NCBI GenBank assembly: GCA_033344875.1
Contig: JAWPMO010000001.1
Coordinates: 4,551,595 to 4,615,594 of the forward strand
Length of the DNA: 64,000 nucleotides
Reading direction: 5' to 3'
Source of the DNA: Ilumatobacteraceae bacterium
GTDB taxonomy: Bacteria; Actinomycetota; Acidimicrobiia; Acidimicrobiales; Ilumatobacteraceae
Under the pieces are notes generated by a model that had not been told where the DNA came from, searched no databases, and was given only the letters and a program-made list of their open reading frames with translations. This document shows, piece by piece, positions 25,346 through 32,152 of this stretch. The position numbers and the translations under genes are program-made. The stretch's first letter is position 1; each line of letters begins with the position of its first letter.

Positions 25346-27421
25346 TCAGTGGGTGACGACGGGTGCGTGCGGTCGGATCTGTCGTTGGCTGATCGGCTCC
25401 GGGACGCCCGGAACCGGCTCGACGACGACCTCGTTCCAGCCGGAGAGCCAGCCACGGAGTTCGGGGTAGGCCATCGGCGCCGCGATGCCGTATCCCTGCG
25501 CCACGTCGCAGTCGAGCTCGGCGATCGCATCCCACAGCTCGGTGTTCTCCACGCCTTCGGCGACGACGTCGAGACCGAGGTCGTGCGCGAGGCGGATGAC
25601 CGATGCGACGATCAGCCGATCGCGCTCGTCGTGGAGCACACCCTGCACGAAGTCCCGGTCGATCTTGACCCGGTCGACCTGCAGCACGCGAAGGGCTTGG
25701 AACGAGGAGTAGCCGATCCCGAAGTCGTCGATCGCGATGCGGACGCCACGCCGTCGGAGCTGCTCGATGGTGTACCGGCAACGTTCGGCGTTGCTGACGA
25801 TCGAGCGTTCCGTGACCTCGAGTTCGAGTCGGTCGGGACGGAACCCCGATTCTTGGAGGATGGCGAAGACCTGTTGGGCGAACGACGGGTCCTGGAGGTT
25901 TCGCGGCGAGACGTTGACGGCCAGGCGGGCGGTGACGCCGCTGTTGACGAGTCCCCGTGTGGCCACCCGCAGCACCATCTCGGTGATCGGACCGATCAGG
26001 TCGGTCTGTTCGGCGAGGCCGATGAACTCGTCCGGCGGGATCGACCCGTGTTCGGGGTGCTGCCAACGGATCAATGCCTCGACCGTGTCGACCTCACCGT
26101 TGGCGACTCGCAACTGGGGCTGGAAGTGGATGTAGAGCTCGTGGTTCTCGAGCGCGACACCGAGGTCGCTCAGCAGGTTGAGTCGGCCACGCTGCGGCCC
26201 TTGGACGCAGGACTCGTAGTGGCACACGGGCACGCCGGTCCGCTTCGCCTTGTACATCGCGATGTCGGCCGCGCGGAGCAGGTCGGACGAAGTGCGTCCG
26301 TCGACCGGGTACGTCGCCGCGCCGATGCTCACGCCGATCGTGACGGGGAAGCCCTCGACCATCAGCGGGGCACGGAGCGCGGCACACAGTTGCTCGATCG
26401 AGCGAGCGACGTTCTCGCGGGTGTCGACGAACAGGATCGCGAATTCGTCGCCGCCGAAGCGGGCGGCGATGGCGTCGGCGGACAGGCTGTTCTCGAGCCG
26501 GTCGGCGAACGCCATCAGGACCGAGTCGCCGAGCTGATGGCCGAGCCGATCGTTGATGTCCTTGAAGTCGGTGAGGTCCATGACGAGCGTGACGGGCAGG
26601 ACCGCCGAGTCGCCGTGTGATTCGGCGAGCGTCTCGTCGAGGGTCTCGAGGAAGTTGCGCCGGTTGATCAGCCCGGTCAGGGCGTCGTGGTGCGCTTCGT
26701 GCGAGCGTTCGAGCGCCTGGCGAGTCGACCGGAAGACGAGGGCGGTGGTGATCCCCAACAGCGGGAGCAGCACGAGTCCGAAGTCGACGCCGATCACCCA
26801 GATCGGTGCCAGCGAGAGGAGCGCGCCTTCGGCGGTGATCCTCATGCCGAGGCCGCGCTGCATGAGCGACAGGAATCGGATCCGACGTCGGATCGACATC
26901 GAGAGGGCGGCGACGGCGGTGTTGAGGACGACGATCGTGACGCCGGACAGGACGATCGCGAACGCCCACCGCCACGGGAGTTCACCGAACTGCGTGATCG
27001 AACCCCGGACGCCGAGCCCCATGAGCACGAGCCCCGCGGACGCGAGCGAGATGGCCGTGCCGCCGACGCGCAGCACGATTCCGGTGACGGTCTCGGCCTG
27101 CGTCACCGAGTGGAGCGTGGCGCCGAGCAGCGCGACGCAGAGCGCGAACGAGGGTGAGCCCACGAGCATGAGGCCGAATGCGAACAGCCACAGCGGGGTG
27201 ACGACGCCGGCGGGCCCCAGTCGGACCCATGCCGCCGGCACCCGTTCGCACAGGAGCAGCATCGTCCCGATGACCGCGAACGCCGGCCAGTTGACGACCG
27301 GCTGTCCGGCACCGGTCTCGGTGAGGACGAGCACCCAGGTCGCCACGAAGGCGATGACACCGATCGCGCCCGTCACGAGCGCCACACGATGGCGGAGGAG
27401 GAGGTGTCGAAGGTGAGTCAT
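25346..27421 (-). CDS. Membrane GGDEF-EAL protein (cyclic di-GMP turnover)
   Basis: A 691-residue protein. About seven hydrophobic helices fill residues 10-215. A GGDEF domain follows with an intact RFGGDEFAILF near residue 324, then an EAL domain with intact VEALIRWQHPEHG near 447 and IDDFGIGYSSFQAL. Both active-site motifs are complete, so it could make and/or break c-di-GMP. The usual RxxD inhibitory site before GGDEF is absent. ATG 27421 begins MTHLRHLLLRHRVALV; a TTG at 27499 would add 26 residues. No good ribosome site is visible for either. Confidence 0.88.
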   Translation of the reverse strand: MTHLRHLLLRHRVALVTGAIGVIAFVATWVLVLTETGAGQPVVNWPAFAVIGTMLLLCERVPAAWVRLGPAGVVTPLWLFAFGLMLVGSPSFALCVALLGATLHSVTQAETVTGIVLRVGGTAISLASAGLVLMGLGVRGSITQFGELPWRWAFAIVLSGVTIVVLNTAVAALSMSIRRRIRFLSLMQRGLGMRITAEGALLSLAPIWVIGVDFGLVLLPLLGITTALVFRSTRQALERSHEAHHDALTGLINRRNFLETLDETLAESHGDSAVLPVTLVMDLTDFKDINDRLGHQLGDSVLMAFADRLENSLSADAIAARFGGDEFAILFVDTRENVARSIEQLCAALRAPLMVEGFPVTIGVSIGAATYPVDGRTSSDLLRAADIAMYKAKRTGVPVCHYESCVQGPQRGRLNLLSDLGVALENHELYIHFQPQLRVANGEVDTVEALIRWQHPEHGSIPPDEFIGLAEQTDLIGPITEMVLRVATRGLVNSGVTARLAVNVSPRNLQDPSFAQQVFAILQESGFRPDRLELEVTERSIVSNAERCRYTIEQLRRRGVRIAIDDFGIGYSSFQALRVLQVDRVKIDRDFVQGVLHDERDRLIVASVIRLAHDLGLDVVAEGVENTELWDAIAELDCDVAQGYGIAAPMAYPELRGWLSGWNEVVVEPVPGVPEPISQRQIRPHAPVVTH

Positions 27422-27608
27422 GGCCAAGAACGGAACAGCGCTGGTGTCCCCCTGCGTTATCGTCACGAACGCGTTGTTATTGAGTGAAGGTTGTGTCAAA
27501 CCCCATGGTCACGGCGGATTCTTCGCTGTCGCCCGGACGTGCGATGCGCCGGGCCCGCCCGATCCGGGAGTGGAGACGGGTCGAGGGGGCGTCGGGCGCG
27601 GTGGTGAT
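27422..27608. other. Spacer between GGDEF/EAL gene and tRNA-like array
   Basis: 187 bp with no credible gene. On the minus strand it holds a TTGACA hexamer (27499-27494), but no -10 at proper spacing is visible. It should contain the promoter of the GGDEF/EAL gene. Confidence 0.4.
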
Positions 27609-28131
27609 GGGGTCGTCGTGGGGAGGTTCGGGTGTGGTTCCGCCGACGTAGCCCAACTGGCACAGGCACGGTGTTGAGGGGGTCGTCGAGTGTAGGTTCG
27701 GGTGTGGTTCCGCCGACGTAGCCCAACTGGCACAGGCACGGTGTTGAGGGGGTCGTCGAGTGTAGGTTCGGGTGTGGTTCCGCCGACGTAGCCCAACTGG
27801 CACAGGCACGGCGTTGAGGGGGTCGTCGAGTGTAGGTTCGGGTGTGGTTCCGCCGACGTAGCCCAATTGGCAGAGGCACGGTGTTGAGGGGGCCGTCGAG
27901 TGTAGGTTCGGGTGTGGTTCCGCCGACGTAGCCCAATTGGCAGAGGCACGGTGTTGAGGGGGTCGTCGAGTGTAGGTTCGGGTGTGGTTCCGCCGACGTA
28001 GCCCAATTGGCAGAGGCACGGTGTTGAGGGGGTCGTCGAGTGTAGGTTCGGGTGTGGTTCCGCCGACGTAGCCCAATTGGCAGAGGCACGGTGTTGAGGG
28101 GGTCGTCGAGTGTAGGTTCGGGTGTGGTTCC
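27609..28131 (+). repeat. Seven 70-bp tandem tRNA-like repeats
   Basis: Exact 70-bp period; unit starts (GCCGACG) are at 27642, 27712, 27782, 27852, 27922, 27992 and 28062. A partial unit covers 27609-27641. Each unit matches the 5' half of the tRNA gene at 28132: acceptor strand GCCGACG, TA, D-arm GCC-N11-GGC, then an anticodon-arm equivalent with loop TTGAGGG (anticodon GAG) whose stem pairs at four of five positions. The T-stem and 3' acceptor strand no longer pair. Units 1-3 read AACTGGCACAGG; units 4-7 read AATTGGCAGAGG, as does the intact tRNA. There are no unique spacers. Confidence 0.85.
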
Positions 28132-28205
28132 GCCGACGTAGCCCAATTGGCAGAGGCACGGCGTTTAGGTCGCCGTCAGTGAGAGTTCGAGTCTCTCCGT
28201 CGGCA
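28132..28205 (+). tRNA. tRNA-Leu-like gene, anticodon UAG, short variable loop
   Basis: 74 nt fold as a full cloverleaf. The acceptor stem is GCCGACG with CGTCGGC (7/7) and discriminator A at 28205. The D-arm has a 3-bp stem (GCC/GGC) and an 11-nt loop CAATTGGCAGA, as in Leu tRNAs. The anticodon stem is CGGCG/CGCCG with loop TTTAGGT, anticodon UAG at 28166-28168 and G37. The T-arm is GAGAG/CTCTC with loop TTCGAGT. The variable region is only 5 nt (TCAGT), whereas bacterial tRNA-Leu normally has a long variable arm. CCA is not encoded. Amino-acid identity is inferred from anticodon, A73 and D-arm; expression and charging are unproven. Confidence 0.75.
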
Positions 28206-28246
28206 CGCACCGATCGCTCACCTCGTTCGGGGCGAAGCTGGTGGCG

Positions 28247-30643
28247 TCAGTCGACGGGCATCCAGGCGAGCACCAACTGCGACACCTTGACGTCGGTCTT
28301 CTCGAGCGGCACGCGCAGCGTGTCGACATCGGCGGCCGCGGACGTCCACTTCGTGTCGATCTCGACGACGTCCTCGGCGAGGTCGGCCTCGAGGTCCTCG
28401 AGCTGCTCCTGCAACCGTGTGACCTTGTTCTCGGCCGCATCGACCCGCTCGCGACTGGCCTTGGTCCGACCGCGCCGCCCGGCAGCCGTGCCGAGCTTGC
28501 CGAGCAGGCCACCTCGTGATTTTCCGCCGAGCAGGCCGCCCAGGACGGAGCCGGCGGTCGACAGCAGCTCGGAGTTGCGTTTGCTGTTCGCCTCCTCCTC
28601 CAGCACGTCGACGCGGTCTTGGGCGGCCTCGATCTGATCGCGGAGTCGGGTGACCTTGGACTCGTACTTGTCGCGCAGTTTCGCGATGTCGGCGTCGGCG
28701 AGTTCGTCGGCGGCGCGGGCGCAGCGCCCGCGGAACTCTTCGGCGGTTTCGCCGGGCCGTCCGTAGAGCTTGAGCGACGCGTTGGCGGGGACCTCGATGT
28801 TCATGCTGCGCACCAGGTGGTCGCGCAGGTCGCGTTCGACCCCGGAGAAGAACGTCTTGTTCGTCAACCTGGCGTCGGTCATCCGGTACACCGCGCCATC
28901 GGCCGGCTCGCTGCGGAGATCGCGATCGTCGTAGTCGACGGCCAGCGCCCGGCTGACGTCGACGGTCTCGCCGATCGGAGCGATCACGCACTCGTACTCC
29001 TCGTCGTGGACGAGGTCGGCCTTCGTCTCGTCGTACCGGAGCTGCACGCGGGCGACGATCGCCGCTTCGAGCCGGGTGCCACGCGGGTTGCCACCGGCGG
29101 TGTCGAGCCACGGAGCAGCGGCGTCGATCCAACGGACCGGCACGCTGCTGGTGGTCTCGGGCATCACGGTGGTTTCGTCGTCGGCGAGGTCCGGCCCGGT
29201 CGCGGTGGAACCGACCGCGGTCGTACCGGCGATGTCGCCGGCCGTCGTCGATTCGGCGACCTCGGCGCGCTCGGCGGCCATCAGTTCGCTGATCTGGTCG
29301 CGGGTCATCGGCCCGCGCAGGTAACTCATCGCCCAGCGCGTCGTGAAGACCGACGTACCGTCCTGGCCGGGCACCCGCAGCACGAACTCGCGCTTGCCGA
29401 GCCCGGAGATCGTGTCGTCGACCGCGCCGATGTCGACGCTGCCGGCCGCCGACGTCAACCCTTCGAGCAGACGCGACTTGTCACGTTCGGTGGAGAGGCG
29501 TCCGATCATCCAGGTGCCGGCGTTCGAGAGCGCCTTGTAGTCGATGTCGACCGGGTTCTGGGTGGAGAGGACGACGCCGACACCGAACGCACGCGCCTGC
29601 TTCATCAACGTCATGATCGGCTTCTTGGTCGGCGGGTTGGCGGTGGGCGGCAGATAGCCGGCCACCTCATCCATGTAGAGCATCGCCCGCAGGTCGGTCG
29701 TCCCCGACTGGCGGCGCATCCACGTGACGAGCTTGGCGAGCACCAGGGAGGTGACGAACTGGCGCTCCTCGTCGCTCAGGTGTGCGGTCGTGACGATCGC
29801 GCAACGCGGTGAGCCTTCGGCGGTGTAGAGCATCGATTGGATGTCGAGCGCAGGGCCCTCGGCCCACGTCGCGAACGACGGCGAGGCGAGCAATCCGTTC
29901 AGCTGCATCGCCAGCTTCATACGGTCATCCGGCGGGAAGAACTGGTCGAGCTCGAACACCCCGAGCTTGCGGATCGGCGGGTTGCCGACGAGCCCGACCA
30001 GGGTGGGGAGGTCGAGCGCCTTGCCCGCCGACCACGAGTGGTGGATCAGGTTGGAGAGCAAGATGTGTTCGCGACTCGACAGGGGATCGGCCTCGATGCC
30101 GACCAGGCCCAGCAGGCCGGACACGTAGCCCTCGATCTCGTCGCCGACGATCTCGGCGTCGCTCATGTCGTCGGGAACCTGGAGCGACCCGACGATGTTG
30201 ACGGGCACCCCCGACTGCGAGCCGGGGGTGTAGATCGTGAAGTCGGTCGTTGCGCGCAGGTCGGTGATGTTCTGCGTGGTGTAGCCCCACCCGAGCAGAC
30301 CCTTGGTCCAGAGTTCGCTCTGCTGTCGGGCGAACTCGTCGGGAGTCGCGCCCGCGGCCTTGGCCTGTGCCTCGTCGACCCAGGGCCGGAACTCGGGTGG
30401 GCTCAGCGCCGGGAACGTGAGGCACAGGTTGGTGAGGTCGCCTTTCGGGTCGATCACCAGTGCGGGGAGCCCGGACGCCAGGACCTCTTCCAACAGCACC
30501 ACGCCGAGGCCGGTCTTGCCCGACCCGGTCATGCCGACGATGACCCCGTGCGTCGTGAATTTGTCGGTGTCGATCCGGATCTCGTCGCCGGTGCGCTCGT
30601 GCGTGGCGGGATCGACATGACCGCCGAGGAAGAGTTCAGGCAT
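28247..30643 (-). CDS. HerA-type P-loop ATPase (helicase HerA-like)
   Basis: A 798-residue protein. Walker A is GMTGSGKT at residues 37-44, followed by PALVIDPKGDLTNL. A Walker B-like strand is LRAMLYMDEVAGYLPP, and VVLSTQNPVDIDYKALSNAG is the conserved sensor region. This is the HerA/FtsK-like DUF87/DUF853 ATPase core. The C-terminal third is a coiled coil (about 630-790) interrupted by a Gly-rich segment (LLGGKSRGGLLGKLG). Related proteins act in DNA translocation, or as NTPases of unknown role. ATG 30643 has no ribosome site. It lies 41 bp downstream of the tRNA-like gene, on the opposite strand. Confidence 0.8.
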   Translation of the reverse strand: MPELFLGGHVDPATHERTGDEIRIDTDKFTTHGVIVGMTGSGKTGLGVVLLEEVLASGLPALVIDPKGDLTNLCLTFPALSPPEFRPWVDEAQAKAAGATPDEFARQQSELWTKGLLGWGYTTQNITDLRATTDFTIYTPGSQSGVPVNIVGSLQVPDDMSDAEIVGDEIEGYVSGLLGLVGIEADPLSSREHILLSNLIHHSWSAGKALDLPTLVGLVGNPPIRKLGVFELDQFFPPDDRMKLAMQLNGLLASPSFATWAEGPALDIQSMLYTAEGSPRCAIVTTAHLSDEERQFVTSLVLAKLVTWMRRQSGTTDLRAMLYMDEVAGYLPPTANPPTKKPIMTLMKQARAFGVGVVLSTQNPVDIDYKALSNAGTWMIGRLSTERDKSRLLEGLTSAAGSVDIGAVDDTISGLGKREFVLRVPGQDGTSVFTTRWAMSYLRGPMTRDQISELMAAERAEVAESTTAGDIAGTTAVGSTATGPDLADDETTVMPETTSSVPVRWIDAAAPWLDTAGGNPRGTRLEAAIVARVQLRYDETKADLVHDEEYECVIAPIGETVDVSRALAVDYDDRDLRSEPADGAVYRMTDARLTNKTFFSGVERDLRDHLVRSMNIEVPANASLKLYGRPGETAEEFRGRCARAADELADADIAKLRDKYESKVTRLRDQIEAAQDRVDVLEEEANSKRNSELLSTAGSVLGGLLGGKSRGGLLGKLGTAAGRRGRTKASRERVDAAENKVTRLQEQLEDLEADLAEDVVEIDTKWTSAAADVDTLRVPLEKTDVKVSQLVLAWMPVD

Positions 30644-30733
30644 GTCGGGCAGGGTAGTTGCCGCGGCCGAACGGTTCCGAGGGTGGCGTGTTGCGGCCCC
30701 GACCCCGACAGCGCCGTGGGATATCGTCCTGCG

Positions 30734-32152
30734 ATGGGGAGCACACGAGCCGGGGGTCGCTCGCGCACTCCTCGGCAAGGACGCGTCACCGAACCTGGCT
30801 CGCGGCGCGGTCGGCTCGTCGCCACGCCGGTGTTCGCCGGCTCGGTCGGGTTGCTCCTGCTGAACGACCACGTGCTCAAAGCGGCGTGGCCGGGTTGGGT
30901 GACCGGCAAACTCAGCGACGTCGCCGGGGTGGTGATGGTCGCGATCGCGCTGACGGCGCTGATCCGCGTTCGTGCGGTGGCGTTCGGCATCACCGTGTGC
31001 GCCTTCACGCTGCTCAAGACCGTGCCGGCGGTCGCCGGGTGGGCGGCTCCGATCCTGGGCGGCGTCACCCGCACCGATCACACCGACCTGCTGGCGCTCA
31101 CCGCCCTCGTGCCCCTCGCCAGATGGATGGCGGGATCCGCGCCGCCGCCTCCGAAACCTCGGCGGGCGACCGTCGTTCGGGTGCGCCTCGCGTTGCAGGT
31201 CATTCTGATCGGGGCGGCGATCTTCGCGACGACGGCCACCTCGGCCGATTGTGGACCGACCGGTCTCTGGGACGTCCAGGTGATCGACGACGTCGTCTAC
31301 GCACGGGAGGATCAGAACGTCTGGACCAGCACCGATGGCGGGGCGTCGTGGCAGTCCAGTGCGATCCCCACCAACGACCATCGCTTCGCCAATGGACCGA
31401 AGTTCGAGAGTTGCGCGGGTGACCGATGTTTCCACATCGTCACGTCCGCGTCGGACGACTCGTTCGAGATCGTCGAAACCGTCGGCGGCACGGAGACCGA
31501 GATCCTGCGGGTCGGCAGCGAGCAGCGACGGGAGTTCCGGTCCGAGATCCAACCGTCATGTGGCGACGACTCGGGTGGAGACGTGGCCGCCGTCGAGGTC
31601 GACGGCGATGTGAGCGTCGTCGTCGGTATGGGGGAGGCCGGCACGCTGCATCGGTCCGCCGACCACGGGTGGGAGTGGGTCGCGGTCGGCCAGTGGGGTG
31701 TCGGGAGTGGCGTCGCGACGGGCGACACGTTCCTCGGGCACCCGATCGCGGAGCGACCGGACCGTCCGCCGTTCTCGTCGAGGTGGACGGCTCGCGCACT
31801 GCTGTGGGCGGCGCCGATCCTCTCGTTCGGTGCCGCCGCTCCACTCGCGGCACTCGCGCACCGCCGGGGACGTAGCCGGGTGGCGGCGCTCTCGCTCGCC
31901 GTGCTGCTCGGTCTTGTCGTCCTGGCCCCGTCGCTCCTGCTGTCGAGCCTCCTCGACGGCGCCACCGATCGCAGCCTCGGCGGCTTCCTGATCGGCGGTG
32001 GCATCATCCTCTTCCTGGCCGTCGTCGGCGTGGGATCCTTGGCGGTGTGGTTCGGACGGGATGCGCGCCCGCTGCAACCGGATCCGGGCTGGACGTCCAC
32101 GACGCCGGCGTGGCCACCACCGCCGAGTCAGCGTCCACCGAACCCCGACTAG
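30734..32152 (+). CDS. Membrane protein with extracellular Asp-box segment
   Basis: A 472-residue protein. About three or four hydrophobic helices lie near residues 30-170, and a soluble region near 175-345. The soluble part carries two sialidase-type Asp-box motifs (STDGGASW and SADHGWEW) and four cysteines. Two or three more helices lie near 360-450, followed by a Pro-rich tail. Asp boxes mark beta-propeller blades, but only two are visible here, so the fold is uncertain. I do not recognise the family. Start ATG 30734 has no clear ribosome site. It lies divergent to the HerA-like gene, 90 bp apart. Confidence 0.7.
   Translation: MGSTRAGGRSRTPRQGRVTEPGSRRGRLVATPVFAGSVGLLLLNDHVLKAAWPGWVTGKLSDVAGVVMVAIALTALIRVRAVAFGITVCAFTLLKTVPAVAGWAAPILGGVTRTDHTDLLALTALVPLARWMAGSAPPPPKPRRATVVRVRLALQVILIGAAIFATTATSADCGPTGLWDVQVIDDVVYAREDQNVWTSTDGGASWQSSAIPTNDHRFANGPKFESCAGDRCFHIVTSASDDSFEIVETVGGTETEILRVGSEQRREFRSEIQPSCGDDSGGDVAAVEVDGDVSVVVGMGEAGTLHRSADHGWEWVAVGQWGVGSGVATGDTFLGHPIAERPDRPPFSSRWTARALLWAAPILSFGAAAPLAALAHRRGRSRVAALSLAVLLGLVVLAPSLLLSSLLDGATDRSLGGFLIGGGIILFLAVVGVGSLAVWFGRDARPLQPDPGWTSTTPAWPPPPSQRPPNPD

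Follow-up and report, generated by a model that had tools for sequence, protein, structure and literature searches.

What a row of seven 70-bp tRNA-like repeats represents, running directly into an intact tRNA-Leu gene, and how it came to be there, is the question raised by this locus. The window, a stretch of 64,000 nucleotides from an Ilumatobacteraceae genome, had been read in a first-pass annotation as holding an amplified, decayed tRNA-Leu(GAG)-type gene upstream of a working one. Our analysis instead suggests that the array arose by recent duplication in place, and favours neither a series of decayed tRNA genes nor a novel RNA system.

The seven units abut the intact gene in phase (Table 1), as had been noted at first pass, and Tandem Repeats Finder (TRF) reports the array with a score of 1038, a period of 70 and 97% matches. 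A 22-base piece of the unit occurs eight times at three or fewer mismatches, against none in 100 shuffles. The first-pass annotation called the repeat exact, which is slightly too strong, as units 3 and 4 each carry one private change. Its two subtypes are present as described (C16 and C22 in units 1–3; T16 and G22 in units 4–7, the latter as in the intact gene), as is the anticodon-loop difference, with TTGAGG in all seven units versus TTTAGG in the intact gene (GAG versus UAG). The unit tails are identical in six of the seven, and the last ∼32 bases of the unit end in GTTCC, abutting both the next tRNA start and the start of the intact gene. An eighth copy, F0, had been overlooked; it is truncated on the left and diverged, matching the unit consensus at 41 of 47 bases over unit positions 24–70 and at only 7 of 23 further left. 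With leaders written as F and the two halves of the tRNA as T5 and T3, the array reads F0-T5-F1-T5 ... F7-T5-T3, comprising eight leaders, eight 5′ halves and a single 3′ half. On the minus strand, three long overlapping reading frames (199, 216 and 233 aa; 27477–28210) run across the array, and because 70 is not a multiple of 3 a repeated peptide appears in all of its frames; these ORFs are likely to be prone to false annotation as proteins.

Table 1. Features of the array and its flanks, in window coordinates.
Feature	Position	Strand	Basis or remark
GGDEF/EAL protein gene, divergent from the tRNA	25346..27499	-	Pfam; tblastn
GGCRCGGYG imperfect direct repeat, left member, proposed duplication breakpoint	27595..27603	+	partner 70 bp away
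F0, leftmost truncated, diverged copy	27595..27641	+	unit positions 24-70; without TANNNT box
Unit 1, subtype A (C16, C22)	27642..27711	+	sequence comparison of units
GGCRCGGYG next member, in tRNA part of unit 1	27665-27673	+	70 bp from left member
Unit 2, same sequence as unit 1	27712..27781	+	sequence comparison of units
Unit 3, subtype A plus C31 as in intact gene	27782..27851	+	sequence comparison of units
Unit 4, subtype B (T16, G22) plus one private tail change	27852..27921	+	sequence comparison of units
Unit 5, subtype B consensus	27922..27991	+	sequence comparison of units
Unit 6, same sequence as unit 5	27992..28061	+	sequence comparison of units
Unit 7, same sequence as unit 5; tail directly precedes the intact tRNA gene as its leader	28062..28131	+	sequence comparison
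TAGGTT, putative -10 box, 13 nt ahead of the intact tRNA gene	28113..28118	+	same place as relatives' TANNNT
Other TAGGTT copies	27693, 27763, 27833, 27903, 27973, 28043	+	exact copies
Intact short-variable-loop (type I) tRNA-Leu, anticodon UAG	28132..28205	+	ARAGORN; Rfam tRNA 54.9 bits
Convergent ORF (relative to the tRNA) encoding HerA-like helicase ATPase domains	28247..31552	-	Pfam on part 28247-30625; tblastn

A closer comparison of the units with the intact tRNA reveals where the likeness ends. Units 4–7 are identical to it over the first 30 of 30 bases, differ at positions 31 and 35, and lose similarity after about position 38; judged by alignment, the clearly tRNA-like part of a unit is the 5′ half (about positions 1–38) only. 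The view of the unit as a tRNA throughout did not survive: an Rfam scan of 26000–30000 at E ≤ 1 returned tRNA only, with the intact gene well above the 29-bit membership threshold of RF00005 and the units unmatched, and ARAGORN calls the intact gene alone there. A model of short-loop leucine tRNAs was more permissive, scoring unit 4 at 42.1 bits, unit 6 at 39.0, unit 1 at 33.8 and unit 3 at 30.8 (the last with a large internal deletion), and, over positions 10–44, units 5 and 7 at 23.3 each and unit 2 at 18.0; the intact gene, itself among the sequences from which the model was built, scores 105 bits. About 23 of the units' 18–42 bits come from positions 10–44 alone, and the full-length alignments borrow their 3′ acceptor strand from the start of the next unit. 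The broken pairs in the acceptor and T-stems, already remarked on at first pass, are seen in the model alignments of three units.

The tail sequence AGTGTAGGTTCGGGT is similar to the variable loop and T-arm of short-loop leucine tRNAs, and the register is about right. Comparisons of the tail with five individual tRNAs were mixed (the best single case, against tRNA-Leu(CAA), was equalled by 0–2 of 1000 shuffles, with ten comparisons per sequence), and we therefore tested it against a profile of 3′ halves. Here, the tail scores 19.3, equalled by 6–12 of 1000 shuffles and by 1–4 of about 2950 window stretches, and F0 scores at chance, with 466 of 1000 shuffles as good. The T-arm likeness of the tail keeps a decayed-tRNA origin of the leader possible, though such an origin is not needed. 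GAG lies at the junction of the two unit halves and so need not be an inherited anticodon, and this genome encodes its tRNA-Leu(GAG) elsewhere, in a long-arm gene. The label of a decayed tRNA-Leu(GAG)-type gene is thus probably wrong, as the units match the tRNA only to about the anticodon loop and the rest is best read as promoter and leader.

Support for a promoter comes from the leaders of related genes. From 25 relative genomes matching the tRNA, 19 relative loci were fetched, of which 17 were read at first; a truncated locus (L008) was added later, and another (L017) is cut off at the tRNA and has no leader sequence. In a search range of 7–14 nt before the tRNA, a TANNNT box was found 9–13 nt upstream in 16 of the 17 leaders, and in 17 of 18 when L008 is added (TACGCT at 9 nt), the exception being L018, which has no such box at the expected place. 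Leaders shuffled to keep base composition only carried the box in a mean of 1.06 and a maximum of 5 of 17 cases over 2000 rounds, a comparison in which the relatives are not independent. In the array, seven of the eight leader copies (1–7) have TAGGTT, ending 13 nt ahead of the tRNA start, and F0 lacks it; shuffled tails yield such a box 3.4% of the time. As the TANNNT box of the relatives sits at the same spot as TAGGTT in the units, the tail occupies the place of the promoter. A sigma-70 scan of 27400–28400, which covers that promoter type only, gave no -35 box, and the -10 argument consequently rests on the leader comparison; a terminator scan of the same stretch gave no match. The unit tail found no match by blastn of leader F in the 19 relative loci, and with no similar leader in any fetched relative the unit leader cannot itself be compared across species.

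The arrangement of these parts points to their origin. The leader and the tRNA each contain a GGCRCGGYG stretch, and the spacing of the two equals the 70-bp period, which fits slippage duplication. The leader's GGCGCGGTG is in register with GGCACGGTG/GGCACGGCG of the tRNA part, one period apart for the first pair (GGCGCGGTG and GGCACGGYG are 70 bp apart). The left edge of F0 matches the tRNA-derived part of the unit at 12 of 15 bases, a match equalled by 1 of 20,000 shuffles and 2 of the 64,000 15-mers of the window. The order of leaders and half genes is what duplication of a segment made of leader plus 5′ half predicts, and the contrast between F0, which differs at 6 of 47 positions, and the near-identical inner tails suggests an early duplication followed by later amplification. 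On this evidence from sequence, we consider that the array probably arose recently and in this lineage alone, by tandem duplication of a 70-bp segment that holds the promoter and leader of tRNA-Leu(UAG) together with the first half of the gene.

In the mechanism we propose, slippage or unequal exchange between two nearly identical 9-base stretches spaced by 70 bp (the leader's GGCGCGGTG and the tRNA's GGCACGGCG) would have copied the leader and 5′ half once. The outer leader, F0, would then have decayed, and more rounds of unequal exchange would have raised the inner unit to seven copies and produced the two subtypes. If the putative boxes are functional, each of the seven leaders could initiate transcripts that extend into the one intact tRNA. 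Cleavage of the tRNA 5′ end by RNase P is an established pathway, and for array transcripts it would then free the 5′ end of the intact tRNA. The effect would most likely be none, or a modest change in tRNA expression, with the units yielding no functional tRNA.

The locus without the array is found in relatives at the same place, as a slippage duplication implies. In four congeners (G001, G004, G005 and G006), relatives of both neighbours, the GGDEF/EAL and the HerA-like gene, flank the tRNA with no array, and a fifth (G007) shares the GGDEF/EAL neighbour only and has no array either; in all five, the GGDEF/EAL relative flanking the tRNA was identified by tblastn. The distance from the 38th codon of the GGDEF/EAL ORF (the 41st in G007, the 36th in G005) to the tRNA is 107–203 bases in the five relatives versus 744 in the window, or 254 once the seven units are subtracted. 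When 720 bases of the locus were searched against the 10 genus members, seven of the nine besides the window's own genome gave the tRNA stretch. The remaining two, G003 (98% complete) and G009 (94%), gave no match to tRNA-Leu(UAG), which leaves two readings, a gene absent from the assembly or the use of another form; their matches near F0 (39–48 bases) were dropped, being GC-rich and without a leucine tRNA or relatives of the neighbouring genes.

Further afield, the tandem pattern of the tRNA 5′ part occurs in one of 200 sampled family genomes, the window's own, and in none of the 199 others (of the 200, 79 reach at least 90% completeness with no more than 5% contamination). A set covering 84,980 species with one genome per species, from which the window's genome was perhaps left out, gave a single match, a metagenome-assembled genome (MAG) of the Myxococcales. 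We rejected it as a second array, as it holds complete neighbouring leucine tRNA genes instead; at L071:4266-4498, three short-loop leucine tRNAs (CAA, CAG and AAG) adjoin one another, with 26 ARAGORN calls in 8 kb. A mobile origin was likewise set aside, with viral contigs giving no exact tail match and no match to the tandem pattern; phage (best 8 of 39 records) and plasmid (1 record) matches comprised, among the matches listed, the tRNA itself only. By title and abstract, we found no literature report on tRNA-pseudogene arrays, partial tRNA tandem duplication or promoter duplication that matches this case.

The intact gene is the sole UAG leucine tRNA found in the genome (ARAGORN, 46 family matches), and no long-arm UAG pattern is present. 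On the tRNA loci, ARAGORN finds leucine tRNAs of the long-arm kind for UAA, GAG and CAG, and those for UAG and CAA among these loci are of the short-loop kind only; the short-loop tRNA-Leu(CAA) lies at G000:C1:1005341-1005413 (L052). One leucyl-tRNA synthetase gene, in two matched pieces of one frame, was above the cut-off. A separate locus, at G000:C1:389077-389347 (L063), gives a weak tRNA match of 31.9 bits that ARAGORN calls tRNA-Gly(TCC), about 2 kb from a strong tRNA-Gly(TCC) (L034), and may be a pseudogene or a foreign copy. Outside the family, 24 high-scoring loci (L077–L100) yielded, with identical ones dropped, 19 distinct short-loop leucine tRNAs, UAA or CAA. Among 118 genomes sampled from the order and searched with exact patterns, 14 have the short-loop UAG pattern, 69 the long-arm UAG pattern, none both and 35 neither (mutual exclusion, Fisher p = 1.3e-6, only a guide because related genomes were counted singly). 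In families f13, f82 and f87, both kinds of tRNA-Leu(UAG) are found, in different genomes, which in these gene patterns hints at repeated replacement. A short-variable-loop tRNA-Leu(TAG), borne on a tRNA cluster, is reported beside a normal one in Mycobacterium (PMC6582537).

Could the units themselves give rise to an RNA product? A role as tRNA decoys or small RNAs had been offered at first pass and found no support here, and it appears very improbable that the units are processed in this way. The units do resemble the 5′ half of a tRNA, and RtT RNAs are released from the E. coli tyrT tRNA transcript (PMC4986893). Against this, single units fold no better than shuffles (z +1.19 for unit 1 and +0.46 for unit 5) and the array plus tRNA folds less stably than all 100 of its shuffles (z +3.5), so that a structured RNA was ruled out; Rfam at E ≤ 1 matches the intact tRNA alone, and the units show no conservation. 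In partition-function folds, the intact cloverleaf keeps forming with 13–280 upstream bases, with a mean acceptor pairing of 0.92–0.98, dipping to 0.57 at 210 upstream bases, and 0.64 with none. We expect that transcripts from one or more leaders would yield a normal tRNA after RNase P cleavage. An assembly artefact is just as improbable as a decoy role: short perfect repeats are liable to mis-assembly, and their copy number is checkable only with reads, but the genome is one contig (4,968,626 bases) and the differences among units are position-specific.

More weight is due to the suggestion that another short-loop tRNA-Leu gene once stood upstream and gave rise to the units through decay of its 3′ half, with the ruined T-arm becoming the leader and the pseudogene sequence then being amplified. 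The T-arm-like AGTGTAGGTTCGGGT is in register, three units align over their full length to the family model (34–42 bits), and adjacent short-loop leucine tRNA genes are known from the Myxococcales MAG. We nonetheless regard this history as unlikely, as the 5′ half of the unit is perfect and the 3′ half almost unrecognisable, with a sharp border between them, F0 has no tRNA likeness, and the tail lies at the position of the relatives' promoter. Had the array consisted of full tRNAs, exchange would also be expected to have involved the intact gene in its entirety. ARAGORN found a second leucine tRNA in none of the 19 relative loci, its only second call being a tRNA-Ser on the opposite strand of L018, more than 350 bases away.

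Promoter multiplication with an effect is the main alternative on function, and it shares the origin by tandem duplication that we favour, differing from it on effect. Here, the copies would be selected, with seven tandem promoters raising or tuning the sole CUA-reading leucine tRNA and slippage varying their number. TAGGTT is kept in all seven inner leaders, the tails are identical in six of seven units, and the genome has no other UAG leucine tRNA that we found; the -10-like box is in place in seven of eight leader copies, and the sigma-70 scan of 27400–28400 found no -35 box at the expected spacing. The array occurs in one genome only, recent duplication alone explains the identity, and CUA is very rare, with 6 of 16,162 codons in 31 long ORFs of the window (at least 250 aa), a count lowered by choosing ORFs with third-position GC above 0.8. 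Selection of this kind thus seems rather doubtful, and a contingency-type array, in which slippage in the copy number of the 70-bp unit would tune the output of the sole CUA-reading tRNA-Leu from one lineage to another within a species, and with it how genes containing CUA are translated, is more doubtful again. A nearly neutral tandem duplication that multiplied a tRNA promoter is most likely.

The locus illustrates how a tRNA gene can gain a row of promoter-like leaders through ordinary duplication with a breakpoint inside the gene, the intact copy being kept, and it warns that tRNA-like repeats adjoining a tRNA gene are not necessarily decayed tRNAs. If it is true that copy number varies and alters tRNA output, the decoding of a rare codon would be a tunable trait. 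That short-loop tRNA-Leu(UAG) takes the place of the long-arm form here and there across the order is relevant to the way in which a single leucyl-tRNA synthetase can accept either shape.

Among known systems, the repeats of the E. coli tyrT operon lie downstream of the tRNA and carry its 3′ end. The array resembles them, and rtT RNA, in being a set of tandem repeats with a piece of a tRNA gene inside a tRNA transcription unit, but it lies upstream and carries the promoter plus 5′ half; the rtT model gave no match in the Rfam scan of 26000–30000. Bacterial tRNA gene clusters with short-loop tRNA-Leu hold the same kind of tRNA as the intact gene, but they consist of complete genes for many isoacceptors, whereas this locus has one complete gene. 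Tandem tRNA pseudogenes are also tRNA-derived repeats beside an intact gene, and the array differs from them in that only the 5′ half of the tRNA is clearly recognisable in its units. Tandem duplication by slippage or microhomology, as at a bacterial variable-number tandem repeat (VNTR) locus, leaves a direct repeat at the breakpoint, a fixed period, near-identical inner copies and a diverged edge copy. The array shares the short, imperfect breakpoint repeat, the fixed period, the near-identical inner copies and the diverged edge copy, here in one species only, and unlike an ordinary VNTR its duplicated unit holds a tRNA promoter and half a gene.
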